Source of the DNA: Asterochloris sp. CNOR1
Taxonomy: Eukaryota > Chlorophyta > Trebouxiophyceae > Trebouxiales > Trebouxiaceae
Assembly (NCBI GenBank): GCA_963969365.1
Contig: OZ017747.1
Span: 496,001 to 560,000, forward strand
Reading direction: 5' to 3'
Length of the DNA: 64,000 bases
In this document: piece after piece, positions 141 through 63,692 of the stretch
Layout: each line of letters begins with the position of its first letter
How positions within the stretch are numbered: position 1 is the stretch's first letter
Position numbers and translations under genes: made by a program
Notes under the pieces: generated by a model
What the model saw: only the letters and a program-made list of their open reading frames with translations
Databases searched by the model: none
What the model was told of the DNA's origin: nothing

Positions 141-3100
141 TCAGCGCCCATTCTGGGAGTTGAGCTTTTTGTACATGGCGTCTATCTGCCCCTGGTATGC
201 CTTCTGCAGCTGGGGCCTCTTGAGCTGCACAGCAGGAGGCAGTGACTGTGAGAGGGACAGATACAGCCAGATAGGTACTGGGAGAGTGTGAAACTGAGCA
301 GGATCTGAGCATCATACTGCCTGACAGCGCAGCTTGCGGCCCCAACCTTGAAGGTTGGCGTCATGAGCTCATTCTCGACTGAAAACTGTTGCGAGTCCAG
401 GTAGATGGACTTGATCTGCTCAAAGCCCTGCACAGCAGATAGACGCACCCCTGTAATGCTTCTGGGCAGTTGTTGCCTCACAACGTCTGCACTGTGGTAC
501 TGGAGATGTCATGTTGCGCAGGCTGCTCTCAGCATCGTGATTACTACCCACAGCACCTGCCAGCTGCCTGCCACAGCAACACTTACCAAATCAGACTCAT
601 CAGCCAGAAGGAATGTTTGGGTACACTCCGACATAATCTGGTCCACCATTCGAGCACAGCTCAAGAGCCTGGTGGAAGCAGTCCACCTTGAGCCTGCCGG
701 CAAAGCCGTTGCGGTAAGCTGCTCTGCAGACATCTGTTGCGGAGAACACCAAACTTGAAATACCCCACCTCTGCTGCCATGTTCAACCTATCAAAGTTGT
801 GTGCAAACAGCCCATTCCAACTCTGACAAGGCAGCATCTCACCTTGAGCTTGCTCTCCTTGCCTAGCGCATTGAGCACTTGAATAGACTGTGTGCATGGT
901 GCAGTTGAGCAGACTGTGTGCATGGAGTCCTCTAGAAAGCATGCTGGGGTGCAAAGCCACATGACATCTCACAAACAGCCCACCTTTGAGCTTGGCCTCC
1001 TTGTCTGTCGCAGTGAGCTGTTCCAGACACAGCGGACTCCCGCGTTCAAGGAGTCAATCTTTAGACGGACAGCCTAACCAACTGCCAGCAGCCCACCTTG
1101 AGCTTGCCCTCCTTAGCGGTTGTGTTGAGCTCATCCAGCGCCCACTGGCGGGCGCCCTCATCCCGGCACAACTCTGCATAGTCGCCGCCCTTGCCCTTCT
1201 GCTTGCCCCACGCCATCAATTTGTCCTCTGCAGGTCACAGCAGGACATGTGCAATGCACTAGCAGTCAGGCCATGCTTCCAAAAAGCTACTTGGTTGCAT
1301 TTCCTGTGCATGGCAACAAGTGGGGCTGCTGAGTCTTTGGAACCCAATCAAGCATTCGATGCTTTGAAAAGGCCTTGCGAGGCCTTAGCATGTCACTCAC
1401 AAACCTTGAGCTGTTGATCAGGCAGGGTGGAGAGGCGTGGCCGCGTGCACCCTGTATCGGCAGCAAAGCGGGCAGCCATAGCCCAGTGAGGCAGCTGGGC
1501 AGATGCTAAGCGACTTGGGGGCCTGCAAATCCTTGCCCCCAGAGACACCAGAAGAGTTACGGGCAGCCAGCTGTGCACCCTTTCTCACACCCTGATGTGC
1601 TGCTGGCTGCTGCTGCTGCAAGCAGGCCTGGCAACTGCCTTGAACAAGACAGGACAGCAGGCCTGCGCCTCTGTAAGCTTTCAAGCCCATCGGGACAATG
1701 ACAGGCTCAGCCTCTCACTGGTGAGGCTTGGCAAACCTTGCCCACTGCACAAATTGATTCCGCCAGACGCAGCTGCACTTGGGGCTCACATTGGCACCAG
1801 GATGGCCACCAGGGTGCTTTCCATGCTGTTCTACACCAGATTTAAGTCGATAACACAGAATAGCAGGCCGGCTTGATGCAAGTCCACAGAGACTAGGATG
1901 TGCCAGCTGCGCTTGGGGGTCACCAATGGCCACCAAGATGTTCCCTGTGCTGGCCCTCTTGACTGGGTATATGACTGGGTATATATGTTGGGAGGAAGCA
2001 GGTCGTGTTAGCTTCATGCCTTTTGCTGGAATGTGGCAGCAGCACTGTGACCTTACCGACAGGCACCAAGACGGCCACTAGGGTGCTCTCCATGCTGTTC
2101 CCATACACGAAGATCTGCTCCACCAGGGGGTTCTTCTTGTACACCTCCTCCACCTTCTCCACAGCGATGTACTCCCCTGCAGCCAGAACCGAACAGTCCG
2201 TGAAAGGATGCCTCGAGTCCCTGGAAAGCTTGCAGGAAGGCTCCCAGGTTATCAACTTGCTCTGCAAGCAAGTGAGATAGCTGCAAAAGCGCAGGGCACT
2301 CTCTCCAAAACAATAAACTCCGCTGCAGCCTTGACGAGGGAGCAGTGTTGTATCAATCCTCTGACGCAGCAGCCCTATTCCGGCTGATAGCAACCAGCAA
2401 AATCAAGCTTGCCACCAGAAAGTAATAGGAATGATAGGTCGACGTCGAGGTGCCACACGACTCCATCAATGATGACGAGGGGGCTGGACTGGCGAAATGG
2501 GCTGATCAGCTGGCTGCCTGAGGCGTGTGGACCTTGCAAAGGCTGCAATCAGCAGACTAGCCATGCACCACACCAGGCCTCAGCTCAGCATGAGGTGACA
2601 GGGCAGGGAGAGCTACCTGTGCCAAGATGAGAGTTGCCTGCCTCTACACAGATGACATGCAGGCCTAGGCAGGGCAACCAGGTGGTCAAGCCAGACAGGA
2701 AACTGGCCTCGCCCTGCCTGCCCACCTTGTGCCAGCTTGAAGATGTTTTTCTTGCGGTCAAAGATGCGCAAGGCGCCGCCCGGCGTGATCTCGCCAATGT
2801 CTCCACTGTGGAACCAGCCATCCTTGTCCAGCACCTGCAGCGTGGCAGGTCAGCACAAACTGATTCAGCCTCAGCAGTGCATCCTGGATTGACGTCAGCA
2901 CAACCCAGGATAGGTGCCCACAGTAACACTGTGGGCACCTATCAGACTGGGGCCCCTCTACATTCCCGCTGGAAGTGATGCGTGGGTCAGCAAAGCGTGC
3001 TATGGTCCACTTTCCGCATCTAAGGTCAGCACCCATTGTGGGGCAGCACACAGTGCAGCATCCCTTGTACTGCTCTCTGCTTTAATCTGGCTTCGCACTT

Positions 3101-6100
3101 GTTTGTGGAGCTTCACATGCTGTGGCCCACCTTCCATCTTTTGGGCTATTGTCAAACGCTGCATGCACTACTCTGAACAGGTCGTGCTTGTGTTTGATAC
3201 AGGTGGGGGTCAAACAGGAGGCAGCTGCACTCTGTGTGCAGTCTGACAGGCAGATGCACATGGCAGGCTTGGCTGGAATGCAGCAGTTCTGCCATTGCCT
3301 CCTACTGGTTTCAAGGTGTCTACATGCCCTGCTTCAGCCAGAACCAGTGAGCATCTGTGAGCCCCTGGCAAGTACCGGAGTATGATGGTATCTAGGCTAC
3401 AACACATGACAGCCGAGCTTGCAAGCTGCCCACGCTTGACAGACTGCTGCATGATTCCCAAGTGCATAAAGACACACAGGCATGTGTAGCGTACTCAGCA
3501 ATTGCTGCACTTCCACTCGAGCCCCACATGACCTCTGTGTCTCACCTCGTCTGTCTTTTCCTTCTGCTTGTAGTACCCTGAGAACAGGGTCTCCCCTCTG
3601 AAGCAGATTTCGCCCCGCGGGGGGTTGTCGGTGGGCAGGTAGTTCATGTCAGGCACAGCTTCCAGCCGTAGCTCTGTTGAGGGCAGTGGCGGGCCCACAG
3701 TGCCTGACATGTCCTGCAGCATGCAGCAGAGGTGGCCTGACACCTGCTGCATTCACATGAGGGGCACACATCAAACGAGTGCTGACATAATCCCAGCTGC
3801 TCGCAGTCCCGGTGCTGGGTCTCCTGCTGACTGCACTGCTTCACGCATAGCCACAGCCTGTCTTTACAAAACATCTGGGCAGCCTGCAGAGGGGCAATTT
3901 CCAGGGGTTGAGGGGCAGGCGCAGGTTGACCAGGGTGTCCTGCCCGTCAAAGGCGGCCAGAGAGTGGCGAGCCGCCTTGCGTGCTGTTGCTGGCTACAAT
4001 ACGTACCTCAGGATGCAGGAAGCTTCTTACCAGCTGGTCAGCAAGACAGAGAGAGGCTGTGGGACGCCCCCACAAGGCCCCAGGCAATGCAGGAAGCATC
4101 TTGGAGACATCCCCCAGCTCACCGGTTGGTCGGGCCAGGCGATGCAGGACGCGGCGCAGGTCTCAGTAAGGCCGTAGCCCTGCACCACAGGCGCGCACAT
4201 GGCCACCTTGAGGAACTCCTCTGTGTGGGAGGCCAGGGGGGCCCCGCCGGTCACGATGATACGCACACGACCCCCCAGGCGCCCCTTGATCTTGTTGAAC
4301 ACCAGGCGGTCAAAGAAGGGAGAGGCCTGCAGAGGGCAGGGCATGAAGGTTGAAGACGTCAAGCAAAAGCAGTCCTGTCAAACACCAGCCGCCAGTCAAA
4401 GGCCAGGCAGGCCTCCAGAAGGAAGGGCCTGCATTTGAGAAACACCAACAGCAGGCAGCATTGAGCCTGTGGAGACCTGCCTTGTCACAGCGGAGGCCTC
4501 CAGGGAGGAGGGCAGATCATGAGGGAGCTTCAGATACAAGGATACTTGCGACGCCAGCGCGGCTCTAGCTGGCTATACCTGTTTGGTCCCAGTCTGTCAA
4601 AGAAGGGGAGCATTGCCTGAGCTGTGTTTGACAAGCCGTTCAAATGCACCCCATCAGATGTGCGTGCTCAACATCAGGTAAGCTCAGAAAGGCAGAAACC
4701 TGCAGGGCTGACATCTGAGGCAATGCTTAACGAATGAAGGACGCAGGAGCGCTGCACCTCGACGTGGAAACCTGGAGCAGGTCAGCTCATTTCAGCTGCC
4801 TTTGCAGGTCTTGGTGGTGCGCCTGCCAGGCTGCTCTGTCAAAGATTGGGCACACAGCAGCAGATGACATGCTCACAGTGAGATGTTTGTTTGAGCAGGA
4901 AAGCCAGGCTCGCCAAGGGCCTGTGTCTATCTGTGCAGAGGCCAAGGCAAGATTTTCCTGCTGGACTGTGGGCACTGACCACAAAAGTGCCCACACTAAT
5001 TGGATGGACTGATCCAGGGCTGTGCGTGCATCAGTATGCATCTCCAAGGTCTTGCGGGCCTGCCCTGCAGCTTGAGACCCGCGCTGAATGCCCCACATGA
5101 CTCCTGTACCCACAGAAGGTTCCCTCACCCTCTGATGAGCAAGAAACCCCTGCTGAAGGCGAATCAAAACAACTCAGGGCAGGCCTAAGATCCGCTGCAC
5201 AGCACATCCTCCCGCACCTTGTCGTGGGGAAACCCCTGCTTGAGGAAGTGGGACTTGCGCTTGTAGCCCCAGTCAAAGAGGAACTTCTTGAGGCCGCCGG
5301 CTTCTTGCACCTTGCCCAGGACGCCTGTGTAGATCCGGTCGAACACGCGGGGGACGCCAATGAATAGTGTGGGTTTCAGAGCACCTGCAGGGCAGAACAG
5401 CATTTCACAAACAGCACAGGTTGACAGCCTGTGATGTGAGCAGGTGCACATGTGCCCTGTCAAAGACGCAGGGCACACCAGTGAACAGGGTGGGCTTCGG
5501 GGCGCGCCCCGAAGACAGCAGCCAGGAGGCTTGCAGGCACCCGCTGCACCCATGTTGTTGGTGTTGTCCCAACACACTGGGGGCGCCAATGGACAGGGCA
5601 GGTTCGAAGCCGTTTGATCAAGTCACAGGTGTGCTCATGAGATGGACTGCTGCAAATGCAGTTTCGAGGCAGGCAGCTAATGGCATCCCAGATTCCTGCA
5701 AGCGGGACCGCCTGCACTCCTCCTGCTGGATGCGCTGGAAGGACACCATCCCATCATGTGGCCACCCACCGATATCGTCCACCAGTCCCTTGATGTCGCC
5801 TCGCCAGTACCCAATCCTTGCCCCCATGTAGATGAACATCTCCTCAGATGTCCTGCAGGGTGTGGACTGGGGGCGGTTTGCTGTCTGCCACAGCTCCCCA
5901 AGAGATGCAGAAAACTGCTTGAAGGGCTGGCAGGCTTTGATGATGGTCTGAAAGTGGTCATGTTGCCTTTGACAGACATGGCTGGTGCAAAAGCAGACCT
6001 GCAGGCTGCCCCACGCTGTCCAGGACTGCAGGTACAGGCCACCTGCAGGCCCTGACTTTCCCCCAAGGCAAAGACGGTGGCTGCTGCAGGCAGGCTGCCA

Positions 6101-8868
6101 GAACTGCACCTATGAGGCGCACCAGGCTGCGGTGCCCTGTGCATCCACTGCAGGTAGGCGATGTGGCAGTCATCTCACAAACACTGTGTGCAGCCCCTGG
6201 GAACAGCCATCTCGGAGCCTCCTGTGCATGCGCGTCACCCCCTCCTGTCAACAATGTGTGCCAGGGGGGAGTGGGACATCTGGCAGTCACCTCAAAAACC
6301 CAATTGGCAGCCCCATCAAGAAGCATTTGAGAGCCGCATGTGTGTACCCACCTGTCAAAGATGTGTGCCAGGGGCAGGTAGGATAGCATGACATCTTCAC
6401 AGCCCAGCTTGGCTCCCACCACCTCCAGGAAGTCGTAGATGCCCGCACAGGTGGCCACAACCGCCTTGTGGGTGATCAGCACGCCCTGCAGGTGCGAACT
6501 GCCTGAAGTTGAGTGGTTGGATCTACTGCACGGTGTGAGCTGGTGAGCGCGAGCACAGCAGGCGCAGCTACAGGGCAAGCTGGCTGGCAGTGACAACCTG
6601 TGAATAGCATCACTGGTACAGCTTCTGAAGTGAGGGGCTCTTCCAGCACGGGAACTCAACTCACGCCTGCTTAGAGATTGGCTACAGCCTGGCAAAGCTA
6701 CGCATGCAGCAGTGCCTACCTTGGGGTCGCCAGTGGTGCCAGAAGTGTACCTGAAGGAAGCAGGCACCCAGCCGTCAGCAACATGCAAAAGGAATGCAGT
6801 CAGCTCCTGACTCCTTTCAAGCACCTCGCAGGCAGCCCTCCATAGGCATTCACAGGCAAGCAGCCAGCTCACATGATGGTGCACAGGTCATCTGGCTTGG
6901 GCGGGGTTGGGGGCGCTGGGTTCTGCTCCCCCAGGGCGAGAAACTCGCTATAGGTGTAAAGCTTGATGCCAGCCTCCTGCATGGCCTGCAGGACAGAGGA
7001 CAGCTATTGCAGACAGATGCAATCAGAGAGCGCGCGAAATAGGTAAATTATCCTGCCGCCACTACATGGCTGGCCACTGCAGTGCCCTCTTATGTCCAGC
7101 ATAGGCAGAATCTGCTCCTCAAGAGCACGTCATCGTGGCGGCCCCTACCATGGTGGGTGGTCAAAGTGCAGAAGCATGGTAGGGGCCTCCAAGATGACGC
7201 AGCAGCAAACCATAAAGTTGTAAGGACGAAGTGCAGGAGCAGGCAGGAGCTGCTGTGCACACCCCACATTCCAGAGTTGCAGTGACTTTGGTGGCAGGCC
7301 TTCACAATGTCCCAGCCTCGTACCAATTTTGGCTGTCCATGCCCCAGTGGGCAGCTGCACCCCGAAGGCCCCTGCCTCAGATGCCCAGCAAGAGGCGAAT
7401 CAACGATGGGCACACTGCTGCCAGTGTGCCAGATCAGACCCACCTGAATGGAGGCCGCATCTGCAGTCCCCCAGTAGACAACCACCTTGAGGGTGTCCTT
7501 GATCATGGGTATGGCTTTGACCAGCTGGGGCATCTTGTCGCCCGCAGCACAGACCAGAGACACCTCGGCCTGGTGGATAATGAACTCGATGGCATTCTCC
7601 CCCAGGGAGTCGTACAGGGGCACGCAGTACACTGTGTGCCTGTTGCACGCCTGCACAGCGCCAGACAGGCTTTGCCTTATGACTGTTGTGCAATGTGGCG
7701 CCTCGCTGGCATTCTCCCCAACAAAGTCACATGAGGGGGGGAACAATACTGTGTGCCTGTTGCACGCCAGTGGCCAGCCAGCTACTTTGGAATGGTGCAG
7801 CGCAAGTGGCAACCTTAGGACTGCAGCCAAGTCGGGCCCACTGAGGGTAAGTCAGTGCAAGGCATGCCGATTGCAATGCGACGCAAGAGCACACAGCCAG
7901 ACACACAGCATGTTGCATGTCTTCTGTGCATGTCCCCGGCGTCCAAGTTCAGGGCCCTTGTAGGCCTGTCTCAAGCCTGTACAAGGCCGTCCAGGCAGGG
8001 CTGCACCCAGGGGCTGCACTGCACAGCATGCTTGTTGGCTGCCCCTCAGAGTGAGCAAGTGACCGCTGAATGCCGCCTCCAAGAACCAAACTGAGCACCG
8101 GTGGTTTTGCTGCGCGCTTTCAATCTGGTGCGTCAGTCACATGCCTAGACTTAGTGAAGGCTAGCAACGCAACGAGGCGCCCCATGCAGTTGAGGGCAAA
8201 GATGATGCCATAGGGTCCCTCATGCGCAGCAGGCGCTGCTCTTGACAGTGCTACACAGCTCCCTGCAAGATTTGGCTGTGGGGAGTTGCAGCAGCAGCTT
8301 CAACCTCTAAACTAGCTTCCCTGACTCTTGGGTAAGGGGTCAGCATGATGTCATCCTTTTTCAGGTGGAATGCGCCATGCTGCCCAAAAGGTGCGCCCTG
8401 GCATGTTGCCATCCTGCTCAGCAGCTGCATTGCCTGGATCTGCGCCAAGCAATCTTAGCAGTGTTGTGTCGCAGAATCATGGGTACTTCCCAAAGGTCTC
8501 ACCTGCATGACTGTCATCCACTCTGGGCAGTTGGTGCTGAACACGCCGCATCTGCTGTGCTCCTTAAGCCCGACTGCGACCAGAGCTGAGCCAATCTTAG
8601 CCACCTGCTCCTGAGTCTGCCTGTATGTGGTCCACTCATAGGGCCCTGGCTTGCCATCATGCATGCTGCGCCAGCCCAGGCACTCGCGGTCTCCATACTT
8701 CTGCACGCTGCTCTGGAACAGATCATAAAGGGTGGTGATATCCTCAAGAGTTGCCATCTTGTCCTTGGCTGATGCTGCCCTGTAGATGGGAGTGGTGGCC
8801 AGCTGGCCATTCTGCGCCTGCTGACCGGGCGACACTTCCACAATCCGATCTCCTCGAACCTGTGGCAT
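141..8868 (-). CDS. LACS: Long-chain acyl-CoA synthetase (plant LACS type), 15 exons
   Basis: Activates long-chain fatty acids to acyl-CoA through an acyl-AMP intermediate (ANL superfamily). Exons read by eye, all in phase: 8503-8868, 7444-7650, 6873-6985, 6720-6750, 6352-6485, 5770-5852, 5218-5384, 4123-4326, 3546-3713, 2726-2834, 2052-2176, 1405-1494, 1097-1225, 347-427 and 141-224, giving 696 aa, the usual LACS length. The AMP-binding P-loop [11 protein letters not shown] spans exons 3-5. [27 protein letters not shown] and the C-terminal [14 protein letters not shown] lysine motif follow in the family order. The ATG at 8868 opens a plant-like N-terminus ([10 protein letters not shown]). 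The last residues, SQNGR, are not a peroxisomal SKL signal, so an ER or plastid-envelope site is inferred. Exon 12 uses a CCCAG acceptor. Five introns carry decayed copies of adjacent exon edges. Confidence 0.95.
677..1150 (-). repeat. Decayed copies of LACS exon 13 end plus donor
   Basis: The exon 13 3' end with its donor (forward CAGCCCACCTTGAGCTTGCC at 1089) recurs in the next intron at about 976 (CAGCCCACCTTTGAGCTTGG), 834 and 677. The similarity continues about 50 bases into the exon for the 976 copy and fades with distance. Confidence 0.75.
1783..2110 (-). repeat. Decayed copies of LACS exon 11 end
   Basis: The exon 11 segment coding [18 protein letters not shown] (2052-2105) is repeated in the following intron at about 1783-1835 and, weaker, at 1917-1960. 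The copies share the core GGCCACCARGGTGCT with the exon but are frameshifted. Confidence 0.7.
2909..2943. repeat. Perfect 15-bp hairpin in a LACS intron
   Basis: GATAGGTGCCCACAG at 2909-2923 is exactly complementary to 2929-2943, with a 5-base loop (TAACA). It lies in the intron between LACS exons 9 and 10, so it would fold in the pre-mRNA. Confidence 0.9.
5330..5625 (-). repeat. Decayed tandem copies of LACS exon 7 start
   Basis: The exon 7 start coding [15 protein letters not shown] (5335-5384) has two upstream copies in the preceding intron. The one at about 5459-5506 still reads [15 protein letters not shown]; the one at about 5565-5615 is weaker. Spacing is about 115 bases. By eye the first copy matches roughly 70 percent. 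Confidence 0.8.
5495..5514. repeat. Perfect 20-bp palindrome
   Basis: CTTCGGGGCGCGCCCCGAAG equals its own reverse complement. It sits at the edge of the first decayed exon 7 copy in the LACS intron. Confidence 0.9.
6153..6426 (-). repeat. Decayed copies of LACS exon 5 end plus donor
   Basis: The exon 5 3' end ([17 protein letters not shown] and donor, 6341-6426) is repeated in the next intron at about 6234-6314, which retains CTGTCAA and ATGTGTGCCAGGGG, and partly at 6153-6200. The copies are out of frame. Confidence 0.75.
7604..7772 (-). repeat. Decayed copy of LACS exon 2 start and acceptor
   Basis: Exon 2 begins [20 protein letters not shown] at 7650. About 116 bases upstream in the intron (7710-7772) a copy starts ACNRHTV and then degenerates. 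ACTGTGTGCCTGTTGCACGC is identical in both. Confidence 0.85.
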
Positions 8869-10549: not shown

Positions 10550-12886
10550 ATGCCCAAGGTGGCGCTGCTCTTCCTCGTGCAGGGGCCTGTCCCTCATGAG
10601 CGTCTCTGGACTGAGTGGTTCCTGAGCTCTACAGATCGCGTGTCTGCAGCCTGCACTGCCGCAGCCGTTTGCTCTGCAACCGACCCAGGTGATGGCCCTG
10701 GCGCAGGTCGAACCTGCTAGCCGGCTAGTATGCCAAACTTGCACAACATGGCGCCACAGCCAGTCAGCAGCAGCAGCATGACAGTCTTGCGGGTAGCAGC
10801 GTCTGCACACGCAATGACACACCACATGCTACCAGTCAGGTCTGTGCAGTCCAGCTTGGTGCCTGCGCTGCACCATCTGCAGATCATTCTCCACAGCACA
10901 TGTGTCCAGCCTCAGAATGCTGACATCTGGCTTCGTTATGTTTGCCTGCAGACTCCGCAGCGTCTGTTATACTCAATGCATGTTCTCCTGAGGCCACATA
11001 CAATGTACATCACACTCAGCACCTGCTCAGCATTTATGTGCACTCTCCACCTGGCTGGCCAGGCTACCAAGCCAGCAGCCTGTTCCACGGACGGGAGGTG
11101 ACCAACAGGGTGCACACCTCTTGGGCCAGCCACTCTATTGTGGTGGCCACCAAGAGGTGGGCTTGTATGGGCTGCATCTGGTGTGATGATGCAGCCACTC
11201 TGTCGTGGTGGCCACTGAGAGGTGGGCTTGTAAAGGGCTGCCCTCTGGTGTGACAGACCTAAGCATTGAGGGTGTGTGAAGTGGGCACCATCTGCTGGGC
11301 ACATGCTAATTGGCTTTGCACTGACACACAAGCTGGAGTCCGAGTTGCACATGCTTTGTTGATGCCTTGCGTTGGGCACCCTCCACAGGCTGGGTTGCTG
11401 CTTTGCGGTGCTCAATGTCTGGGGTGTCATGACTGTTTCCAGTTGCCTGTGCACTGCAGCTGAGGGGATGCACCAGTCTGATGGGGGCCTGTTGTGCTGC
11501 AGGCTGCTGAGCGCTGCCCTGAAGGACCCATTGAACCAGCGCTTTGTTCTGGTGTCAGAGTCCTGCATCCCCCTGCACTCGCCAGCAGTCATGTGGAGCC
11601 AGCTCATGGCAGACAACAGGAGCAGGATCAATGCCTGCGCTGACTCAGGGCAGGACCTGATGACCTGGAGGTCCGTTACTGACAGCAGGCTGACTGTGCT
11701 AAACCTGAGTGTCAATGGGGTGCTATGTGAGCTTTCCTGGGGACTCTCAGCTGTGCCTGCGACTTCCCGGCTGAGGCAGCATACTTTGCCTGCAGTGCGA
11801 GACATGCTGCTGGGGCTTGTGGGGCATTGGGTAGTGCCTGGCTGGCGGATTGAGACTTGAACATTGGCATTCCAGCCCTGGGAGCACCTTTCCCTGCTGT
11901 GAAGGTGCCTGCAGTACCTGCTGAGCTCAGGGGGTGCGCAGCAGGTTGGTGGTGGATTGTTGCTGAGTCATGGCTCCCAAGCCGGGGTAGCTTTCCAAAT
12001 TTGCTGTACTGAAGCTGCCTACCTGCACTGGCTGCTGGAAACAGGTTCACACTGCTTTGCTGGCAATGAGTATTGGGGCTGATGTGGTATCCAACCATCA
12101 AGGTGGTCAGGGTTGCTCACTGAGTCACCCCTATGAGGATGCCTCTCCACTGCTGTGCAGAACCAATGATGCCCTGTGGCAGAGTGGTTTTAACCTCAGT
12201 CACTGGCGCAAGAGCTGGCAGTGGTGAGGCAGTGGTGGCCATGCAGAGCTCATTCCACATGGTTTGCTGCAGCTGCCATGCATGCACATGCAGCACAGCA
12301 GCTGCTGCTCTGCAAATGGCTGAATGTGCAATTACCTCTGCAGGCCCACATGGAGCTTGTCTGGACTGCAGCCAGAGACTCTGCTGCCTGCAGGTTTGCC
12401 CTGGTGCGCAAGCATGCGGAGCTGGTGGCCCAAGAGGAAGTGCTGGACAGCATCTTTGAACAGCACTGCCAGTCGGCGCAGCTCTGCATGGTGGAGGAGC
12501 ACCTGTTCCCTTCAGTGCTGGCATTCCATGGCCTGGACAGCGAGACAGACTGCAAGGGCACCGTGACGTGGGCTGACTGGGACCACCCACAGGGCGAGGG
12601 TGGTGTGCACCCCAAGTCCTATACCCCAGCTGAGGTCACCTTGGCACAGCTTCAACGCATCAGGGATGGCCCCACTGGCCAGTGCGCCGGCTTATCCGAC
12701 ACAGCAGCTGGTGTGCAGACAGACTTCTGCAGCGCAGCCCAGCTGGCCGCTGGGCCCGGTGCCTGTAGCATGAATGGCACGTCACACCCGAGTGTAGAGG
12801 GCTGCCCCTTGCTGGCCAGAAAATTTCTGCAGGACACTGTGGAGGGCCTGCACAACGTCAAGTCGGGCCTTCTGAGTCTGACGTGA
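10550..12886 (+). CDS. DUF266 / GT14 core-2/I-branching-type glycosyltransferase (5' end unresolved)
   Basis: A plant-type DUF266 protein of the GT14 fold, normally a Golgi type II membrane glycosyltransferase. The ATG at 10550 opens PKVALLFLVQGPVPHERLW, matching the family's PKIAFLFL..GPLP..LW block. It directly follows CTGCAG, so it may be an internal exon with a membrane anchor encoded upstream. Next come SIYVHSPPGWPGY and the FHGREV segment (about 11021-11155), ATKR, LLSAALKDPLNQRFVLVSESCIPL (exon from 11503) and the last exon 12394-12886, with ALVRKHAELV, EEHLFPSVL, TVTWADWDHPQ and a Cys-rich tail before LLARKF. The exon for the usual WRKGSQW block was not located. Family assignment is firm; substrate and exact exon set are not. 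Confidence 0.8.
11121..11255 (+). repeat. Tandem copy of a GT14 exon end plus donor
   Basis: Two units of about 80 bases, each holding an exon end SHS(I/V)VVAT(K/E)R followed by GTGGGCTTGTA. The second copy (from about 11197) reads SHSVVVATER, which joins better to the next exon (LLSAALKDP) than the first (ATKR). Either donor could be used. Confidence 0.8.
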
Positions 12887-34180: not shown

Positions 34181-34321
34181 CTAGCAATTCATTCAATGTC
34201 CTTTGAATTCATTGCGTGTCTGTCTGAAGCGAGGGGTGCAGCAGGCCAGGCTGCGCAGCGGCACATACACAGCTCAAAAAGCAGGCATTAGAAAAAGGCG
34301 CTAGGCAGGCTATCAAGCATG

Positions 34322-41515: not shown

Positions 41516-41583
41516 GCTGGCAGGCTGCTGGACAGCAGCCGGCAGATATGGGATTCTGCGCTGCCCAAAGAGCTGGACGCTTG

Positions 41584-42025: not shown

Positions 42026-42026
42026 A

Positions 42027-48000: not shown

Positions 48001-51000
48001 GGCATTGGCAGCATCAACAGCTTCTCTGGGCGCCGCGAGGACTCGGAATTCTTCTTCTCCTTCTCCAGCTTTGCAAATCCGGGCGCCATCTACAGGTCGG
48101 CTGCGCGCGCAGCAGAAGCGTGCTGCCTGTGACATCTGCTCATGTGAAGAGGTGCAGAGGCTGGCACTGGCAGGCTGTGACGCTGCCGCATGCTGCCCTT
48201 GCCTCTGGAGCAGGGGCTTGCCCATGAGGCAGCACAGAGTGCGCAAGGTCATCCTGCTGGACAACCTTCAACTAAGTAAAAGCCCTCTTGGCGTCCTGCA
48301 GTGCTGACATTACAACGCCAGGCATGCGCCCTGCATGCATGCTCAGGCAGGAGCAACCTGCCCTGTAGCAGCTTTTTACAGCCACCTGTGAAGCCTATCT
48401 CCCTGCAGATATCAGTACTGTTTCTGCAGGGACAATGCCACAAAACTTGACCCAGTCCCCACCCTGCTTCTGCAAGCCTGGGTTCCCCTTGTCTGGCCTG
48501 ATCTGCATCTGCAGGGTCAATGTCACCAAGCCAAGACAGGTGCCCCACCTCTTCTGCCATTTCATGCAGAGCCTGGGTTGATGCAGGGGATCCAAGTGTA
48601 GAAATCATACATGCCCCTGTGGGGTGGCCCGTAGGGAGCATGGTAGCCCACAGCAGATGTCACTGAGCTCAGCCCCATGCCACTCCCTGCAGGGTTGACG
48701 TCACTGAGGCCAGCCCTGCACCCCATCTGTTCCGTCAGGTCAAGCTCAAGGGCGGCTACAACCCCGAGGATGACTTTGACACCAAGCAGGTCTTTGTCAC
48801 CAGCAAGGATGGCACCAAGGTTGGTGCACACTGAGTCCATCTGGCTCCTTAAAACAAGTGTAGCAATGTTGGTTGCTATGCGAGGGAATTCATTGCTGCA
48901 ATTTAATCTCAGCAACAAGAACTGGTCAGTGCAAGTTGACCTAACAGCTTGTGTACAGCCTACACTGCCACCTTGAGTGAAATAAACACTGCTGCTGCAG
49001 TACTGCATGGTGCCTGCTCGCAAATTAGTGTCTGCTGCTGGCAAGGAATGCTTGGAACACCTTGAGGCTGCATTCCTGCAAGCAATGAATAGCTGCATTA
49101 GTACATTACCGGCTTGCTTGCTAGCAGCTAAATAGCTGCACCACTTCAAACACCACCAAGCTGTGCAGGCAGCTGAGTAGCTGCACTGGTCCAACCACTC
49201 AGCTTTGCCTGCAGGTGCCCATGTTCATCGTCATGCGCAAGGGTACCAAGCTGGATGGCTCCACACCCACCCTCCTATACGGGTGAGTGAGTCGGTGATG
49301 GTTGTAGATTATGTAGCACACATGCAGAGGGACATAGCATGATTCACGTATGAGGTTGCTTGAGAGTCCTCGGTGAGCGGCTATAGACTTGATATAATCT
49401 AGCTTGATTGCTGTTATCATTATGCAGGCTGCTACTCTGCAATGCCTTTGCTGGTATGCAGAGCTGGGAGGTTCCCTGTCACTCTCTATGGGTGCATCTT
49501 CTGGCAGCTGCTTGCTGTGTTGGGTTTGTAGCGGCCCAATTTTGTGAGGCCTTTCTTTACCTGCACAGTTGTTGCATAAGTGTTACTGTTAAAAGCAGCA
49601 GCAGCCCCATCAAGAGGCCGTCTTGGAGATTAGGCTATGAGCGCAGCAGACATACCAGTCCATGCTAATCAAGCACCTCCTATGCTGCAGCACTCTTTCA
49701 TCATGTCTTGCAGTGTCATTACTTTATGCAGACATGGCCCAGTGTGTGTCTATACCCGTCTGCTTGGAATGATTTGCTCTTCAGAACCTTCAGCGTTGTG
49801 AGGGGTGTTCAGGCATATGCGCAGACGCAGCAGGCTCATTTTGATGCTGCAGGTATGGAGGCTTCAACATCAACCTGTCCCCAGGCTTCTCCCCTAGCAG
49901 GTTGTGCTGGATGCTTGGCTATGGCATCTATGCAGTGCCAAATCTGAGGTGAGTGATGAAGCTCCCTGTACATACGTCTTGGCTTCTGAGCCTTGGGCAC
50001 AACTGGGTGCGCAGTGCCACATTTGAGGTGGGCTGAAACTCCCTGTGGTGCCAGCTTGGCCTCTGAGCCTTTGCCAGGCCTCTGAGCCTTTGCCAACCCA
50101 GTGTGCATTGCTAGCTCATGTTTTTCAGAGCTTGAAGCCAAAAATGTCTCAACAGGTATGCAGGCAGGGAAATCGGCAAATGACAGGGCGGTAGCACCAG
50201 AGGCTGGCCCCTTGTCCACTGCACCAGCCCACCCAGAACACGCCTGCTGCTGGATGCCCTTGCCGTCAAGCAGGCAATGCCCTGAAGAGGAACCATTGCT
50301 TCCTGCACAGTACTACGCAAGGTCTTGCATGGCTTTCAGATGTCAGGCACCCTGGCCTAAGCAAAGTGCCAGTGTCTGCAGGGGAGGTGGGGAGTATGGG
50401 CTGGAGTGGCGCCATGCCGGCTCCAACCATAGTAAGCAGAACACCTTTGACGACATGCAGGCGGCAGCTGAGTTTCTCATCAACGAGAAGTACACCTCAG
50501 CTGGCAAGCTGGTCATCCAGGTGGGGACGAGTCTGCACGGCAATGAAGATCTTGCACTTTGTCATTGCAAGGCAGGGAAGTGCAGGAAGAATGTGGCTGT
50601 AGTGCTGCTCATCCACAACAGCATGAGGGAGTCTGTGCAGCATGATCTAGTAGATGTGACTGGGCGTCATGCTGGGCGTCATGCTGGGCATCATGAGCGT
50701 TCCCTAGTGCCAAGAGCACCTCCAAGAGCAGCTGGGGAGCCTGCCCAGGATTGCTCAGCATTCCAGGCTGCCTTCTGGGTCCTGCAGGGCGGTTGCTCTG
50801 CAGCTTTCAGCCAGCCTTCCAGCAAGCAGCAGGCAGCTGCAGCTCATGTCTCCCTGCTGTGTGGCCTGCAGGGTGCCAGCAACGGGGGCCTGCTGGTGGC
50901 GGCCTGCGCCAACCAGCGTCCAGACCTGTTTGGGGCTGTGCTGGCGCAAGTTGGCGTCATGGACATGCTGCGCTTCCACAAGTTCACCATTGGTGGGTGC

Positions 51001-52600: not shown

Positions 52601-55600
52601 ATGTCTCGAGTATCAGCCAGACAATGCCAGCAGACAGCACATCGTGCGTCGAGGCATGGCTGCAGACAGCACATTGTCTCCTGCCGAGCTAATGCGGTCG
52701 AGCCCTCTGACAGGGTGAGGATGCCAATGCAAGTTGTGCTGAGCTGTGTCTCGTAATCTTTTGCAAACGTTTTGCATTGTTGGTCTGCAGAGCCTTCAGG
52801 AGCATGTGGCAAGCTTTGCAATGGCTGTCGCTGCAGCAGCTGCAGTCTCAATGCCCATGGCTGCTCCCCCACAGGTCAGTCCTTGCAAGCTTGTGTTGCC
52901 GTTGAGCTCCACCTTGCTGTGTGATACAATTGCAAACCAAAGGCTGGCTCCACACTAACTGACCTGCGCTGTTGCAGCTGATGCCGCCTGCGGAGGCAAG
53001 GGCGCTGCTGGCCAGGGATCCTGTCAAAAACGCCAGGGCGCTGCTGCGCAATGCCCTGCCTATCAACAATAAGGCAGCCAGGCAGATACAGGCAAGTATT
53101 TGGCGCTGCGTTGGTGCGGCACTGGTTTTGTTCTCAGCCTGCTTTTGTTTAGTTGTGCAGACTATGGCACATGTTTGCTACATCTTTCTGCTCCCATTCA
53201 GCAAGTTCAGCCTCATGGATCACATTGAAACTTGCTAGTCCCCCAGAGACAAGGTCATTATATGATGTGATGGATGCCCTGCAGGCCAGCCTGGAGGGCA
53301 TCAGCGATTCGCTCAGGATTCCTGGCAACAAGTCTCTAGGGCCCATTGCCTCGGTAAGAGCCACTAGCCTGTTCCACGCAAAGCTTCAGGGGCGACTATA
53401 TGGATTGCTGGCACTCCAGCACACAGCTGAGCATGATCAGCAGCCAGCAGGTGCAATTGAGGCGGCATGGCTTTGCTATGACGCACCACAATGATGCTGT
53501 TGAGATGACTGCTGCATGCACTGCTGTACCAGGGCTTGAGCCCAGGATGCAAACAACTGCCCAATGTCCTGTAGGCTGTCAGGCGGGCAGAGAACATCTT
53601 CGGCAAGGAGAAGCAGAAGATGATCACAGACTTCGCGCCCGACAAGAAGGTCAGCTCAGCATTGCTGTCCACAATGTGTCAGGCAGCCTTGCCTGCAGTG
53701 CTGTTCTGCGTGCTGCTGGGCAATGACAAACTCTGGGCCGCCCGTGAACAGCCCTGGCTGCACCGCTCTGTCTTCTTGCAGGAAGGTGCCCCCATATCGC
53801 CGCTGCATAGGTGCCTGCCCCACCCTCCTCCCCCGCCTCCGCCCCATCCCATGCAGCACTGTTATTGGGGGCTGCCCTTCAACATGCCTGCCTGCATCGC
53901 CATCCTGCTTCTGCAGGATGGTGACTAACCACACTGCTGCGCACTTGCAGCACTTTGCGGGAAAGCTGCCTCCAGCTGCAGGAAATATGGCATGCAGGCC
54001 ACAGCAGGCTGAGATGATGAGAATTGCTTCTGCAGTATGAAGCTTTTGTGCTCACCCTTTTTCCCGGACAAATTGCGCATCACACCCCTGCAGGTGGAGG
54101 AGATGCATGCCTGCTGCCCGCTTGTACAGCTCCCCTTCCCGGTCCTCAGAAATTTGTCTGCCATCCAAATACACACATCCCTCCTTCCAACAACCTGCAG
54201 GAGGAGGGCCTGCAGGCCATCGCTGACTTGGAAAATTCCTTCAAGGAGTTTGACCGCGTCTTAGAGACGGGAGACAAGCAGGCGGTGCCCATCCGCCAGC
54301 AGGATGCGCTGGGCTACGTGGGGCAGATAGAGGAGGCCATGGTCAAGGAGTTCCCCTACCAGGTGCCCTCTGAATACGACTACCTGCCCCAACTCAAGGT
54401 GAGCGTGATTTGCTGGCCTTTGCTGATAAGGGCGCCCAGCAGGTGGCCATGCACTTATTGCTCTCCTTGCTCTGAGAAGGGCACTTAGCAAGGGGCCCTG
54501 CAAGGCAAGAATTTGTTGCTTGCCTCCCCATGAAGTGCAACATCTCAGGTCGACTAGCAATGCCTCACAGCAAACATGGGCAGTGCAGCAATAGCTGTTG
54601 TCCCATGTCACTATGCTCAGCACAAGATGGGGTGCCTCACGCCAGCACTTTGGCTGAATGCTGCACCTGCACAATATGACAATCATGCTCAGAAGCATAT
54701 GTTTTTGACTGACGCTGTGCAGCACAGTGCTTATTTTGTGCAGTCAAGGCGCCTCACAGCATGGTGATGTGCAGGGCCGGGCCACAATGGAGATGAAGCT
54801 GACACTGGCAGAGGCGCGTGAGAACGGTGTCAAGTCGGGCCTCATCAAGATTGTGGCAGACGGCTACAATGCCCCTGTGACTGCTGGTGAGAGGGCCAGC
54901 CTCTCCACAGGCTGGCTGCCAAGCATGCTGTGCCATCCGTCAAGGCAGCCGCTTGTTTCTCGTGCCTGCTCCTTACTTGAGGGGATTCTGCAGGCATGCT
55001 GGCTGCAGGCTACTGTGAAATGCATCTCTTGCTTTGCTGCTTGTGTCTTAGGTGCTGGTGGTCAGCTCACTGTTAGGCAGGTGGCCGCTATTTGATTAGA
55101 GAATGGCCCGAAAGTGCCTGCCTCTCATCAAGGCAGCATGTTTGACCCTCCTTGCACTCCTGCAGGCAACTTTGTGGACCTTGTCACCAAAAACTTTTAC
55201 GATGGGATGGACATCCAGCGTGCAGATGGCTTTGTGGTGCAGACCGGCAAGCCAGCAGATGTGAGTTGCACTCCTGGCTGCTCCACTTTGTTGGCTGTGT
55301 CTGTACTGGTGGGCCCACTTTGCAGCCGTACTCCCCTGGCTGCTGCTGGTCAGCAGGCAGCAAGCAGCAGGCGTCCCGCTGGCCACACTCTTGCTGCTGC
55401 ATCCTGTCAGCTCTGCTGCGCCAAGGCTTCACTGCAGACCTCGTGATATGCTGCTGTGTGATCTGTGGGACAGGCGCCAAGCACTCAGCTGTAGCAAATT
55501 TGATGGATTGCCAACTCACCATCCCATTGACTGCCTGTTTGACGCTGCTGCCCCTTGCTGCAGAGAGTTTAAAAAATGTCTCACCAAAAGGGTCCAACCC

Positions 55601-56883
55601 CTGCTGCAGCTATCAGGCAGCAAACCCAATGCCAAAAGCCATTCAACCGCTTGCTTGCATGGTGGCAATGCTATCACTGGTCCCTGCAGGCTGAAGACCT
55701 GTGTACAATCTGAATCAGCAGCCCCAGTGTTGCTTTCTCGAGCCTCAAGCTTCCCCACCTGCAGACAGCTGGCTGCCTGCGATGTCAAATAGACTCCATT
55801 CTCATGGGGCTCACATCATCTGCCCTGCCGCTTGCCAATGGTTGCCCTCTCGCCTGCAAAGCAATGAAGCACTGGGAGCAACACCACGCAGCCTGCCGCA
55901 AGCTGATGGTCTGCTCTGCCTTGCCTTGCCTTGCCTGCAGCGCAGTGCCTGCCTTGCCGCATACTTCAAGCAGCCCAGGAGGGCTGCCCAAGATGCCGGG
56001 CCTGCAGGACTTCCAAGTTGGTGTGCCCTTCTACTCATACTCATGCAAACCTCTTCCAACTTAAAGTGGCCAGCTCTGTCGAATGACAATGTTGTGCAGA
56101 GCGCCGACTGACTGAGGCCTGACACCCAGCAGCTCAGGCTCAGAACTGTCATATCTGCCGCTCATGAGTCGCGCTCCTTGCTCTCAGGGCGACGACTACC
56201 TGGACCCTAATACCAAGCAGCCCCGCAAGATTCCCTTCGAGCTCAAGATGGTCAACGACAAGGTGCCCATCTACGAGGAGACTCTTGAGGACGTAGGCCG
56301 CGTGAATGAGGACCCTGCCCTGCCCTTCAACGCATTTGGCACCCTTGCGCTTGCCCGCCAGGAGTTTGATGCTAACTCGGGGTCCAGCCAGATCTTCTTC
56401 CTCCTCAAGGTGGGTTTGCTGGGTCAGGGGATCTGGCCTTGTGGGTTTTCACATGTGCTCTGGCATCGGCTGTGACGCCAACGAGGGGTCTGGCCACGTC
56501 TTTCTCCCCTTAGGGTGGAGTTATGGTTGATCAGGCGTGCCTCTGATAATTGCCTTCTGGTGGCCTGCTGAGGCAACGCTATGCTGGTGTATTGCTCAGC
56601 GAAGTCATACAAGCGCACTCCTCTGCCACAGCCCGACAAAATGTGCATAACATGCCAACACCTGGCTCACCGCCTGCTGCAGGAGTCAGAGCTCACCCCC
56701 ACAGGCGCCAACCTGCTGGACGGGCGGTATGCTGTGTTTGGGTATGCAGTCGAGGGGGCAGACCTGCTACAGGAGCTGCAGACTGGTGATAAGATTGACT
56801 ACATTAAGGTCACCCAGGGCCTGCAGTACCTGCAGCAGCCAAAGGCCGGTGCCAAGCCTGCTGCACTAGGAGACACTGCATAA
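52601..56883 (+). CDS. CYP38: Thylakoid-lumen cyclophilin CYP38/TLP40-like, 10 exons
   Basis: A lumenal multi-domain immunophilin required for photosystem II assembly in plants; its cyclophilin domain is usually a poor isomerase. Exons in phase: 52601-52714, 52791-52874, 52978-53091, 53285-53353, 53575-53649, 54201-54398, 54775-54886, 55166-55260, 56188-56409 and 56683-56883, 427 aa (Arabidopsis CYP38 is about 437). Exon 1 is a basic, Ser/Gln-rich transit peptide; exon 2 codes the lumen-transfer hydrophobic core [20 protein letters not shown]. The N-terminal helical domain has [16 protein letters not shown] and [86 protein letters not shown] and [11 protein letters not shown] cover the linker and cyclophilin domain. 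Exon 3 ends at a GC donor. Confidence 0.95.
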
Positions 56884-57341: not shown

Positions 57342-58834
57342 TTACAGGGATGCGGGTTCCATTTTGCCAGCCTTGCCCAGGCGAAAGACAGGACCAGTGC
57401 CTATGTTGTACCGGTGGTAGTTGTTGGTGCCAGCTGCATTCATTGCTTTTCTGAAGGTGATGTTGATTCTGGGCTGCACAGAGCTCTGACGCTTTGGAAT
57501 AGAGTGCAGCCACTTGCTCTGCGTTGTCCCCTGCGCGTTGCAGCAGGAGGTAAGTCAGCTTCCTTCACTGGGATTCTGCACCGTCCGCTGAATGTGTCCT
57601 GGATGGCCGCACTGGACTCCCTGCAGTCAGTCTGTCACTTGCAGAGCCTTTGAGATTGACACTTACCCTCATCACAATCAAGTTCCCGCTTTCAAGCAGA
57701 AACTTCTCCTTCCGCTGTGCATCCTGCTTGTGTTTGAGCAGAAAGTCGCGCGATCCTCCAAGGCTGAGGGACGCGATGCAGGGCAGGGGCCCGAGGAACT
57801 GCTCGTCGTCTGAGTGGAACGATATGCTGTGCTGCCCATCCTGCACCCATGCAGCAGCAGCATCTGGCCCTGCCAACACAGACTGCGAGCTGTGGCAGGT
57901 GCTGGCACCTATCAAAAGAAGAGCTGGGTGCAATCACAAAGCAGGCAGCTGCAGAAGAGAGCATGGCTGGCAGGGCATTGCAGCACACACCTCATAGTAG
58001 TTCATCAGCAGGAAGTTGTACTCTGCACCAGTAGCTGCCTGCACTACCTCAAGCAGCTCCTGCAGCGGGGCTGGAATCTGGCGTGGGGGCTTCTCGTACA
58101 GCAAGATATTTGAGGTCGGCCCATAGGTGGCATCACACCCAAAGGTGGTCGTGTACCTGCAGGAGCGGTTGTCAGCTGTCAAAGAGGTCCTGGTGGGCCC
58201 TGATGGAGCTGTTCAACATCTGATTGTAAAGCGAGGTCTGGGTGGTGTCCTTGTCCTATAGGGTTCAGAGATGCTGGAGCCAAGCTGTCTGTTGTGGCAT
58301 GCCTGTGGCCAACATGACTTACCTGGGAGTGTTGACCTCCATGTTGCGTGCCCGGTACTGCACCTGCGGGCAGACAGGCAGGCGGCTGCATGCACAGAGC
58401 TCCAGTGCCACTCAGCGATGTCCAAGGCAAGGGTGCCCATTAGAGGCCAGAGGCTGCTGCCGGCACTGTATTCTATGCTCAAGGACAGTAGCAAAGATGC
58501 ACAGCTGATGTTGGTAAGGCTTCACCGCACACCTTGTACCATGGGAGCTCCTGAGCGCACCAAGTGAACAGGCTGCGCGAGCTGCCAGCCTTCACAAAAC
58601 TTTTTATGTAGAGGAGGTCAAGGTCTCCCTTTTGGATGGCCCGCTTGTGAGCTGTGCAAGTGGCCTGCTGCAGGCGCAGGCTGGCAGCACTGATTGGGAA
58701 TGGCGGGCTGGCAAACAGCCTGCCGTCATCATCCGGCTGCACATCAGCTGCCCCGCTCTTAAACTGTACGCGGCGCCTTGACCCAGGTGGGGGTCCTGCT
58801 TGTGCTTTCTGCCTTTTGTTTGGGGGACCAGGTC
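57342..58834 (-). CDS. AlkB-family Fe(II)/2-oxoglutarate dioxygenase (ALKBH2/3-like)
   Basis: Likely a nucleic-acid demethylase that repairs alkylated bases. Exons in phase: 58533-58834, 58323-58363, 57991-58156, 57667-57840 and 57342-57530, about 290 aa. A basic stretch, PPNKRQKAQAG, and SRRRVQFKSG near the N-terminus could be a nuclear signal. Landmarks: SFVKAGSSRSLFTWCAQELP and WYK, YTTTFGCDATYGPTSN, NFLLMNYYEDG, iron ligands His and Asp in SFHSDDE, ASLSLGGSRDF, distal His in SKWLHSIPKR, and 2-oxoglutarate Arg residues in RINITFRK. Exon 58533-58834 starts in phase 1, so a short first exon with the ATG lies upstream and was not found. Divergent from the dynamin gene. Confidence 0.9.
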
Positions 58835-59161
58835 CTGCAAGCGGCAGGCTTTACAGTCTTACCTGATGATGGAGGATCCTGGCAAGCACATCATGTCTGG
58901 GCAATGTCAGGCCGGTACAGAGCACCTCAGATAAGCTGCCCGGCAGCCCGAGGGCACAAGCATGCTGCTACCTGCCTGAAGTAGCATATGAATCCTCAGC
59001 AGGCCTTTTCTTTGCCAGAGAAGGGCTCCTTGTGTCTGCCATTGGCTCCTGATGCAGACGCACAGCTGAATGCCAGCCTCTACACCTGCCGGAAAAGTCA
59101 ACGTGTCTTGCCTTCTTTCGTTGCAATCTCATCGCTGCGGCCTGTGAAGCCATCAGCAGCC
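58835..59161. other. Short divergent promoter region, AlkB-like and DRP5A
   Basis: Only 327 bp separate the resolved AlkB-like coding region from the dynamin ATG. The missing AlkB first exon and both 5' UTRs must fit here or overlap the dynamin 5' end. Confidence 0.5.
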
Positions 59162-62100: not shown

Positions 62101-63692
62101 GTACCTGGAGGAGGAGCTGGCGCGGAGGTACAGGGATGCTGCCCCAGCCACGCTGGCCCTGCTGCAGCAGCGCTGCGAGGCCGTGGCTGGGGATCTGGTG
62201 GCCGCTGAGGCACAGCTGCAGGCCGCTGAGGACGTCACTGCGCTGAGGAGGGCAGGTGGGTCCTGTGGTGCTGCCTGAAGGCTGCCGATTCTGATGGATG
62301 CTTCTTGTTAGGGAAGCAGCCCACCTTTGCAGCACGATTCTCTTTAGCTGCCTTGTTTAGCTTTGCCCATGTGCAACCTCATCTAAAGCCCTCGCTGCAG
62401 GTACGCAGCGCCATAGCTGTTACACTTAGCTGTGTGCAGATAGCTTCCCTCTCAATTCTGCTTTCGCGGCTGCTGCTGCAGGCATGGAACAAGTAGTCTA
62501 TGGCTAGCAGATCGGGGGACCTTGCTGAAGGTCCAGGCAGTCCTGATCACAACACAAGCTCAATCTTGCCAGTTTGTGCTATCATGTGTGGCGCTGCTGC
62601 AGGCACACAGCACTGTGACCTTCAGACTCAGCTCTCAAGCATGCTCCTGTTGCTGTTGCAGGCATGAAGCACATGGCTGCTGTGGCCAGTTGTGTTGCCT
62701 TGCTGGAGGAGCAGAGCGGCCCTGCCATCAGGCCCAGCTTCCAAGCACGCTGTTGCTGCCGTTGCAGGCATGAAGCACGTGGCTGCCGTGGCCAGCCAGG
62801 TGGTTGCCCTGCTGGAGGGGCAGGGCGGCCCCGATCCAGCTCAGCAGGGCCTGACCACAGAGGAGGAACGGAGCAACAGCAGCGCCCCCATGGTGGGGCT
62901 TCACACTTTGGTGCATGGCTGTCTTGTACAAGATTGGCTGCTGCCTTTGTCCTGTGAACTGATGTTTTGCAAGCATTGCTGCATCTCCGGCTCAGAGCAG
63001 TTGCCTGGCACAGCAATGGGGAAGACAGTGCCTGCAGTGCGCTGTCCAGCCCAGTGCATGTGTGCCCTGCTGCCCTGCTCATGAGGCTGGCTGATACTGG
63101 CTGCCACCTTTGTCCTAGCAGTTGGCGAGTGCTCAGATTCCATCCAAGCAGTTTGGCTTGCACAGCAGTAGGGAGTGCAGCGCCATCAGTGTCCCCACAT
63201 GGTGCACTGCCTAAACTGGTGCCAGTGTGCTCTGCTGTCATGCTCACCGCAGTGAAAGGCTTCAGGTCTTGGAAGGGCCTGGATTCAGGTTCAGCTGCTG
63301 CTGCTGTGCGTCAGCAACGTCTGTTTGATGTGCTGCTGGTGTGCTTCAGCAGTGCATCTCAAGCGCTGCCTGTCCTCTCGAGATTGCTCTGCGGTCGGCA
63401 GGAGCATAGCAAACCAGACCTGGTTTGCTCCAGGCACTATGCACTGTGACACCCTGGACAAGGACTTCTGCCTCTGCAGGGTGTGGCGCCCCTTCACATA
63501 CTCCAACCAATGCTCACCCAGAATGTTTGCACTTGAGCTCTCTACCCAGAAATATGTGCTGCTTGCAGTGGCCAGCCGTGCACACACCTCCGCAACCTCA
63601 GAATGGCGCCCTGAAGCTGTATGGAGGTGCCGCATTTGAGCGATGTCTGGCAGAGTTCCAGGAGGCAGCACAGGCCACCAGCTTCCCCCCAG
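59162..63692 (+). CDS. DRP5A: Dynamin-related protein 5A-like GTPase, truncated by window end
   Basis: Plant DRP5A is a large GTPase acting in cytokinesis; the close relative DRP5B/ARC5 divides chloroplasts. Exons in phase: 59162-59220, 59288-59339, 59445-59580, 59769-59931, 60069-60123, 60271-60347, 60499-60592, 61206-61334, 61603-61748, 62101-62255, 62768-62892 and 63569-63692, about 404 aa of a larger protein; it continues past the window. G1 is GGQSDGKSS, G2 region EMGTRRPLICQMVHD, G3 DTPG and G4 SKFD. LEPRCRVQEEDSEEYGPPI, FLQQSSVEWCSSLW, EVDRYLAATGYL, GGFDEEQFGSRIGFG and LKLYGGAAFERCLAEFQ fit DRP5A better than DRP5B from memory. The exon at 62768 is preceded by an open copy of itself. 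After 63692 I see only intron. Confidence 0.93.
62595..62892 (+). repeat. Tandem copies of DRP5A exon 11 acceptor and start
   Basis: GTTGCAGGCATGAAGCACGT (acceptor end 62767) is preceded exactly 106 bases earlier by GTTGCAGGCATGAAGCACAT. That copy stays open for its whole length (MKHMAAVASCVALLEEQSGP). A more decayed unit precedes it at about 62600. Confidence 0.92.

Follow-up and report, generated by a model that had tools for sequence, protein, structure and literature searches.

Introns of the lichen alga Asterochloris sp. CNOR1 often contain decayed copies of the edges of their own adjacent exons. These copies were examined in a 64-kb stretch of contig C2 (positions 496001-560000; hereafter the window, within which features are numbered) and in control regions of the same genome. 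The observation is sound and extends across all of the genome that was sampled, with 81 of 875 edges matching the adjacent intron at p < 0.01, where about 9 were expected. The copies are real, local, derived from their own exon and neutral-looking, and arrays detectable by Tandem Repeats Finder (TRF) have no preference for splice junctions. The best explanation, to which we assign a probability of roughly 0.6, is that the copies are the decayed remains of small tandem duplications of an ordinary kind, placed regardless of splice junctions. Such duplications, with offsets mostly of 12-270 nt and often with short microhomology, would strike the genome without regard to junctions. A duplication across an exon-intron junction would produce two splice sites, of which the one proximal to the exon body would stay in use, leaving the mRNA unchanged, while the other copy (exon edge and splice site) would turn into intron, lengthen it and decay neutrally. 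Duplications within exons would mostly be purged unless their length is a multiple of three, and those within introns would persist but fade sooner, as neither copy is protected.

Exon edges match their own introns

The edge test covered 314 kb with 491 introns, consisting of the window, a 200-kb piece of contig C1 and five 10-kb pieces, one per additional contig, of the 56.4-Mb genome (21 contigs). Each exon contributed its first 60 nt for local alignment to the intron upstream and its last 60 nt for alignment to the intron downstream, and p was obtained by fitting a Gumbel distribution to 300 random stretches of intron, matched in length and drawn from other genes. Matches at p < 0.01 were found for 42 of 440 acceptor edges and 39 of 435 donor edges (39 and 40 by an empirical p ≤ 0.01). 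At the same threshold, the strand control and the control with the intron at the opposite end of the exon were near chance, with 8/440 acceptor and 4/435 donor matches for reverse complements and 3/278 and 2/277 for the other-side intron. Probes from exon nucleotides 61-120 gave 9/307 and 6/295, and an intergenic control gave 0/20 and 0/20, although this sample is too small. Probes from intron interiors matched the rest of their own intron in 17, 14, 10, and 16 of 356 cases each (3-5%), which indicates that local duplication also takes place away from edges. Local self-similarity is raised within introns and long exons too, and is highest at the edges.

Edge matches at p < 0.01 occurred in 76 of 480 introns tested, a few of them by chance, and were tied to intron length. 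They were found in 4/79 introns under 150 nt and 6/100 in the next length class (10/179 below 250 nt), 16/129 in the class after that, 35/105 introns of 400-700 nt, and 15/67 above (50/172 at ≥400 nt). A sequence-only reading of the window had proposed that introns grow by tandem copying of exon edges in at least eight unrelated genes and had suggested the comparison with random pairing that was carried out here. Local duplication of each gene's own exon edge and the gene list agree with our results. In all eight named genes (LACS, GT14, the gene at 13.6-19.5 kb, D27, TMEM209, POP, DRP5A, and threonine aldolase) one or more edges matched at p < 0.01, with threonine aldolase as weak as that reading had it (edge p = 1.3e-3 and 4.4e-3). 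The copies also lie on the side of the intron adjoining their own edge, in the near half for 43 of the 46 edges that matched at p < 0.001 (the strong set), at a median distance of ~120 nt. On the other hand, the unusual density claimed for the window did not hold up, with 23 of 174 edges matched inside it and 58 of 701 elsewhere (Fisher p = 0.056). A window-specific process was therefore discarded, since the match rate is not clearly above that of the rest of the genome.

Gene models and their support

The gene models were made ab initio with a gene finder self-trained on this genome, which settled on the donor CAG/GTGAG and the acceptor TGCAG/G (slash, splice junction) and gave 39 models with a median intron of 307 nt. 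Pfam domains in the window models include AMP-binding, Peptidase_S9 (both parts), CYP38/Pro_isomerase, Dynamin_N, Branch, CytochromB561_N, D27-like, Beta_elim_lyase, and 2OG-FeII_Oxy_2. Two models could be compared with JGI proteins bearing the prefix Astpho2, which we take to be the JGI code for an Asterochloris photobiont. The LACS model holds 665 of 665 residues of Astpho2/9967 with none altered, and the finder recovered all 14 JGI-supported LACS exons while adding three spurious ones. The POP model differs from Astpho2/9877 by two residues within well-aligned exons, and the remaining 18 mismatches fall where the ab initio model departs from the gene; it contains one or more spurious exons, and its first exons are missing. 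With the JGI-supported exons of LACS and POP, 10 of 46 edges matched at p < 0.01 and 9 of 46 at p < 0.001. The gene models place the exon-proximal splice site in use, as do the JGI proteins in the case of LACS and most of POP, and this site is presumably chosen by exon definition.

Neighboring genes are fused by the ab initio models in places. A CYP38-like peptidyl-prolyl isomerase (Pfam) lies downstream of POP at 52978-56883 and was merged with it in one model; it has edge matches in three introns (p 1.3e-3 to 2.5e-3). At 57342-58891 there is a 2OG-Fe(II) oxygenase (PF13532), presumably of the AlkB type, with short introns of 86-169 nt in the model.

Apparent neutral decay of the copies

The copies in the strong set appear to be free of coding constraint. 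Their offsets modulo 3 are evenly spread (16/15/15), indels are present in 27 of 46, and the differences between copy and exon by codon position are 0.17/0.14/0.24. Frame-blind offsets, indels and this distribution of differences point to neutral decay of a free copy set against a constrained exon. Among copies with a mappable junction, the splice dinucleotide is kept in 6/13 acceptor (AG) and 16/25 donor (GT/GC) copies. The claim of the sequence-only reading that AG and GT signals are kept is thus true in that these proportions exceed the intron background (0.07 and 0.17), but they are near what simple decay would leave. Its claim of decay with distance failed, as the nearest copy outscored the farthest in just 5 of 10 multi-copy edges. 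Divergence within events followed the prediction in 6 of 11 (pooled 0.15 versus 0.18), in a test that is biased by alignment ends.

It is very unlikely that the copies are used, whether as alternative or mutually exclusive exons or as decoy splice sites under selection. Some copies do retain TGCAG or GT, and the gene finder took a LACS copy (984-1017) as an exon. However, the offsets, indels and dinucleotide losses described above are not the conservation of frame and splice sites expected of alternative or mutually exclusive exons, the described copies carry a single exon edge, and the copies are missing from the JGI LACS protein and from the POP protein across aligned exons. Expressed exons were rejected on the grounds of frame, indels and splice-site loss together with these JGI proteins.

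Placement of duplications relative to junctions

A diagonal scan with offsets of 12-700 nt (floor 12) found 109 local direct repeats and 0 in three shuffles, and 81 pairs remained after clustering. Rotation, which ignores the protection of exon copies, gave expectations of 45.1 for intron-intron pairs (41 observed) and 9.8 for exon-exon pairs (5 observed). In the TRF placement test (264 kb; period ≥12), 10 of 71 arrays cross a junction, where 7.6 or 10.6 were expected under two placements; one of the ten, at 45589, abuts an exon shown to be spurious by the JGI comparison. Array periods are divisible by three in 12 of 13 exonic arrays and in 4 of 10 junction arrays. A hand tally of the 81 pairs by the ratio of aligned length to offset gave 33 intron-intron and 12 exon-edge pairs at ≥0.5, and 8 intron-intron and 19 exon-edge pairs (of 31) below 0.5. 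The observed tandem-type ratio (12:33 = 0.36) is near that of an unbiased simulation with conserved exons (0.29-0.33). As TRF arrays cross junctions about as often as randomly placed ones would, a junction-aimed process is not required.

Young pairs are mostly arranged head to tail: of the 15 with an identity of ≥0.93, 11 have a length/offset ratio of ≥0.9. In 9 of 13 young tandem pairs the alignment is longer than the period by ≥5 nt (chance 0.007), although a partial third copy could mimic this. Head-to-tail order and breakpoint homology suggest slippage or microhomology-mediated duplication, and the molecular step would thus likely be slippage or end joining. The 57 offsets of 40-280 nt among clustered repeats are bunched near 62-75 and 91-108 nt, with 0 at 76-90; their best period is 34.25 nt, at a global jitter P of 0.056 obtained post hoc.

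Extent and age of the copies

Several results weigh against duplication without regard to junctions. Exon-edge/intron pairs number 31, where 19.6 were expected and 0 of 400 rotations reached 31, and the excess remains at identity ≥0.88 (12 versus 6.7, P = 0.022) and, less clearly, at length ≥30 and identity ≥0.85 (10 versus 6.6, P = 0.072). Placement on junctions beyond the random level, as the junction-specific process of the sequence-only reading would have it, is thus seen in the full set of local pairs and not in the TRF arrays. Protection of the exon copy can account for part of the excess, but for all of it only if most events are old. The first 60 nt of long exons matched the rest of the same exon at an edge-like rate (4/46, with random introns as the null). 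Constant-rate duplication with protected exons predicted 12.7-13.6 exon-edge pairs, and 30 were observed in the binned range; this simulation took its periods from the offsets of the full set of intron-intron pairs, and an int8 overflow touched matches with very long exonic parts. The predicted ratio of edge to intron-end probes at constant rate was 0.95-1.38 and the observed ratio 2.1-3.0, and exon protection alone is not upheld by these simulations as the source of the edge excess. Moreover, the intron flank was similar at p < 0.05 in 11 of 42 strong matches (10 of 292 non-matches), and in simulations that model acceptors only and were compared with both edge kinds, 84-90% of constant-rate copies continue into the flank as opposed to 11 of 38 observed. 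The strongest copy, in POP with identity 0.87 over 98 nt, does not continue past the junction, beyond what age alone explains.

Loss of the flank is largely reproduced when the duplications are old, in simulations and an age mixture that again model acceptors only and were set against both edge kinds. The mean exon identity of the copies is 0.78 (38 matches), and simulated junction-crossing duplications of fixed age, at 0.25-0.30 substitutions/site, continue into the flank in 17-57% of cases with an exon identity of 0.74-0.76. A free age mixture, fitted after the constant-rate simulations had failed, placed most weight at 0.26-0.34 substitutions/site (32 matches, score ≥97) and reached a log-likelihood of ~-91, compared with -125 to -131 for uniform ages. 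Old junction-crossing duplications would therefore nearly suffice, and most recognizable exon-edge copies are likely old, at ~0.26-0.34 substitutions/site if the inferred age distribution is correct. The cost of this explanation, which also counts against it, is that the best fits require ~136-251 events, amounting to a past wave dated by the fit alone.

Alternative explanations

Edges may instead have been copied by a process that stops at the splice site (~5 nt past it) and places the copy close by, such as RNA-templated repair or some other event coupled to splicing, which we regard as unlikely. Such copying would agree with alignments that start ≤5 nt from the junction in 38 of 46 strong matches, with an ungapped identity that reaches the background level at roughly position -6 or -7, with the few flanks that continue, with the predominance of exon-edge over intron-intron pairs among spaced repeats, and with the excess of edge pairs over both rotation and constant-rate simulations. 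Adding a no-flank component to the age mixture also improved the fit by 2.3-3.1 log units, with a share of 0.21-0.28. However, old junction-crossing duplications look alike in simulation, donor and acceptor edges are equally affected, and match scores crowd near the threshold as they would for old events. The copy flank matches the partner exon edge, the expectation for spliced RNA, in only 3 of 46 copies (p < 0.05), and a spliced-RNA template was rejected on this count. Flank matches to the other end of the intron were found in 11 of 46 at p < 0.05, several of which appear to arise because flank and target overlap where the intron is short. It is possible that a minority of copies are junction-bounded, with the POP copy as the best candidate, and somewhat less likely than junction-bounded copying in general that a past wave of splicing- or transcription-coupled copying of edges exactly to the junction, besides ordinary duplications, built a sizeable share of introns. 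Local gene conversion from the exon, similarly improbable, could keep the exon-derived part similar while the flanks drift, such that the duplications are older than they appear. It would account for similarity that ends at the junction and for the high-identity POP copy without a flank, but the indels and the loss of splice dinucleotides indicate drift.

The least probable explanation, to which we give little credence, is that the matches come from introner-like or other dispersed elements or from errors of annotation or assembly. The ab initio models do contain spurious exons, as noted for LACS and POP. Nevertheless, the specificity for the own intron over the other-side intron and the reverse complement, and the persistence of the signal with JGI-supported exons, argue against an artefact, and the divergence of the copies is unlike that of assembly duplicates. 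No intron family is common to the genes, in line with the earlier proposal that each copy derives from its own exon and not from a shared element, and introners were rejected because there are 24 cross-gene pairs among the 491 introns (E ≤ 1e-3), with at most three partners per intron. Among the cross-gene pairs listed, 13 of 15 connect a pair of paralogous loci or concern two very long introns. A 3.5-kb model 'intron' at 30855-34325 shares ~140 and 57 nt with the introns of one C1 gene and ~53 nt with another, and is perhaps an unannotated gene or repeat. Successive introns with 73-92% identity are common to the C1 models g10-g11 (probably ~109-114 kb of the joined stretch; L012-L013) and the locus L025 on C14:700001-710000. 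These loci may stem from duplication of a gene or segment whose short introns are conserved, which would be useful for dating intron decay.

Copies in individual genes of the window

LACS (minus strand, JGI-supported exons) has copies in five introns. Intron 1 contains an acceptor-edge copy of exon 7444-7650 at 7708-7767 (p = 4e-07), in which 21 nt are identical and the intron flank is not significantly similar (p = 0.105), while the similarity of the donor-edge copy of exon 6352-6485 in intron 5 (6245-6302, p = 1e-04) extends into the intron (p = 0.015). Intron 6 holds two acceptor-edge copies of exon 5218-5384 (5456-5503 and 5571-5604, together 5456-5604; p = 4e-09 and 4e-06), and intron 11 a donor-edge copy of exon 2057-2176 at 1793-1841 (p = 7e-11). 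In intron 12, two donor-edge copies of exon 1097-1227 lie at 986-1026 and 843-860 (843-1026 overall; p = 4e-05 and 4e-03), the first of which is the one miscalled by the gene finder.

POP (plus strand) has both kinds of copy in intron 43022-43955. Its best acceptor-edge copy, of exon 43956-44144, is the high-identity copy discussed above (43742-43839, p = 3e-12), whose intron flank is not similar (p = 0.875), and a donor-edge copy of exon 42916-43021 is located at 43253-43293 (p = 5e-05). A young tandem duplication with a period of 31 and an identity of 0.94 (TRF) spans 46188-46253 across the acceptor 46237/46238. In intron 47067-47901, a TRF array of ~102-nt units at 47594-47958 runs into exon 47902-48095 with an acceptor-edge copy in each unit, three of which have p = 2e-05 to 1e-03.

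Tandem duplications across a junction were also found by TRF in two other genes on the plus strand. In GT14 (Pfam Branch), 1.9 copies of period 65 at 11127-11253 cross the donor 11156/11157, and the intron flank is also similar (p = 0.005). In the DRP5A-like gene (Dynamin_N), 2.0 copies of period 106 at 62585-62845 cross the acceptor 62767/62768 (flank p = 0.005), and divergence is 0.11 in exon/intron columns and 0.26 in intron/intron columns. The gene at 13.6-19.5 kb, likewise on the plus strand, has a donor-edge copy at 14099-14135 in intron 13979-15005 (edge p = 2e-04). Upstream of its exon 17541 there is an array of ~26-nt units (16960-17191), which is wholly intronic in the model. On the minus strand, the D27-like gene carries a donor-edge copy of exon 26325-26576 at 26179-26229 in intron 25684-26324 (edge p = 4e-07; identity 0.82 over 51 nt), the TMEM209-like gene (Pfam CytochromB561_N) an acceptor-edge copy at 35576-35660 in intron 35508-36178 (edge p = 4e-05), and threonine aldolase (Pfam Beta_elim_lyase) a weak donor-edge copy at 21528-21580 in intron 21487-21674 (edge p = 1.3e-03).

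Relation to known systems

Introner elements, known from algae among others, are a familiar source of intron sequence. They resemble the copies described here in that intron sequence grows, and differ in that no element is common to the introns examined here. Tandem duplication and gene structure are reportedly also treated in earlier works cited in this field (Rogers 1989; Hellsten 2011). In the available part of a report on potato RdRp, a tandem genomic duplication across an intron-exon boundary is recorded as intron gain (PMC4974935). The duplicated segment there spans a junction with its splice signals, and an 83-bp duplication lies within an intron of the same gene; however, the outcome was a new intron and an added exon, whereas in Asterochloris the extra copy is absorbed by an existing intron, repeatedly and with decay. 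Work on the AGGT model accepts tandem duplication as a real way in which introns are gained (PMC3443670); there, a small tandem duplication likewise reshapes gene structure and splicing hides the change, but an exon is duplicated and an intron created rather than a pre-existing intron enlarged. A survey of human, fly and worm has also dealt with sequences homologous to neighboring exons, in that case as duplicated exons (PMC9013439). Tandem or mutually exclusive exons share with our copies an intronic sequence homologous to the adjoining exon, but they involve whole exons and alternative splicing, unlike the one-edge, frame-free and decayed copies described here. Exon-edge copies are unmentioned in the accessible parts of the Coccomyxa genome paper, and a literature search over titles and the openings of abstracts found no description of them in algal introns, which does not prove their absence. 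The Asterochloris case differs from these recorded cases in its outcome, the lengthening of introns, and in the number of copies.

Implications for intron growth

The genome of Asterochloris glomerata is described, in the part of its report seen, as 56 Mb in size with 9 introns per gene and repeats of ~5% (PMC6652019). The introns with an edge match in Asterochloris sp. CNOR1 are thus found in a type of genome with low published repeats. The copies provide evidence from nature as to which splice site a cell uses when there are two duplicates. On the best explanation they also record how introns lengthen, and because exon edges are a preserved reference by which duplications may be dated after purely intronic ones have faded, the rate and tempo at which introns grow can be measured.

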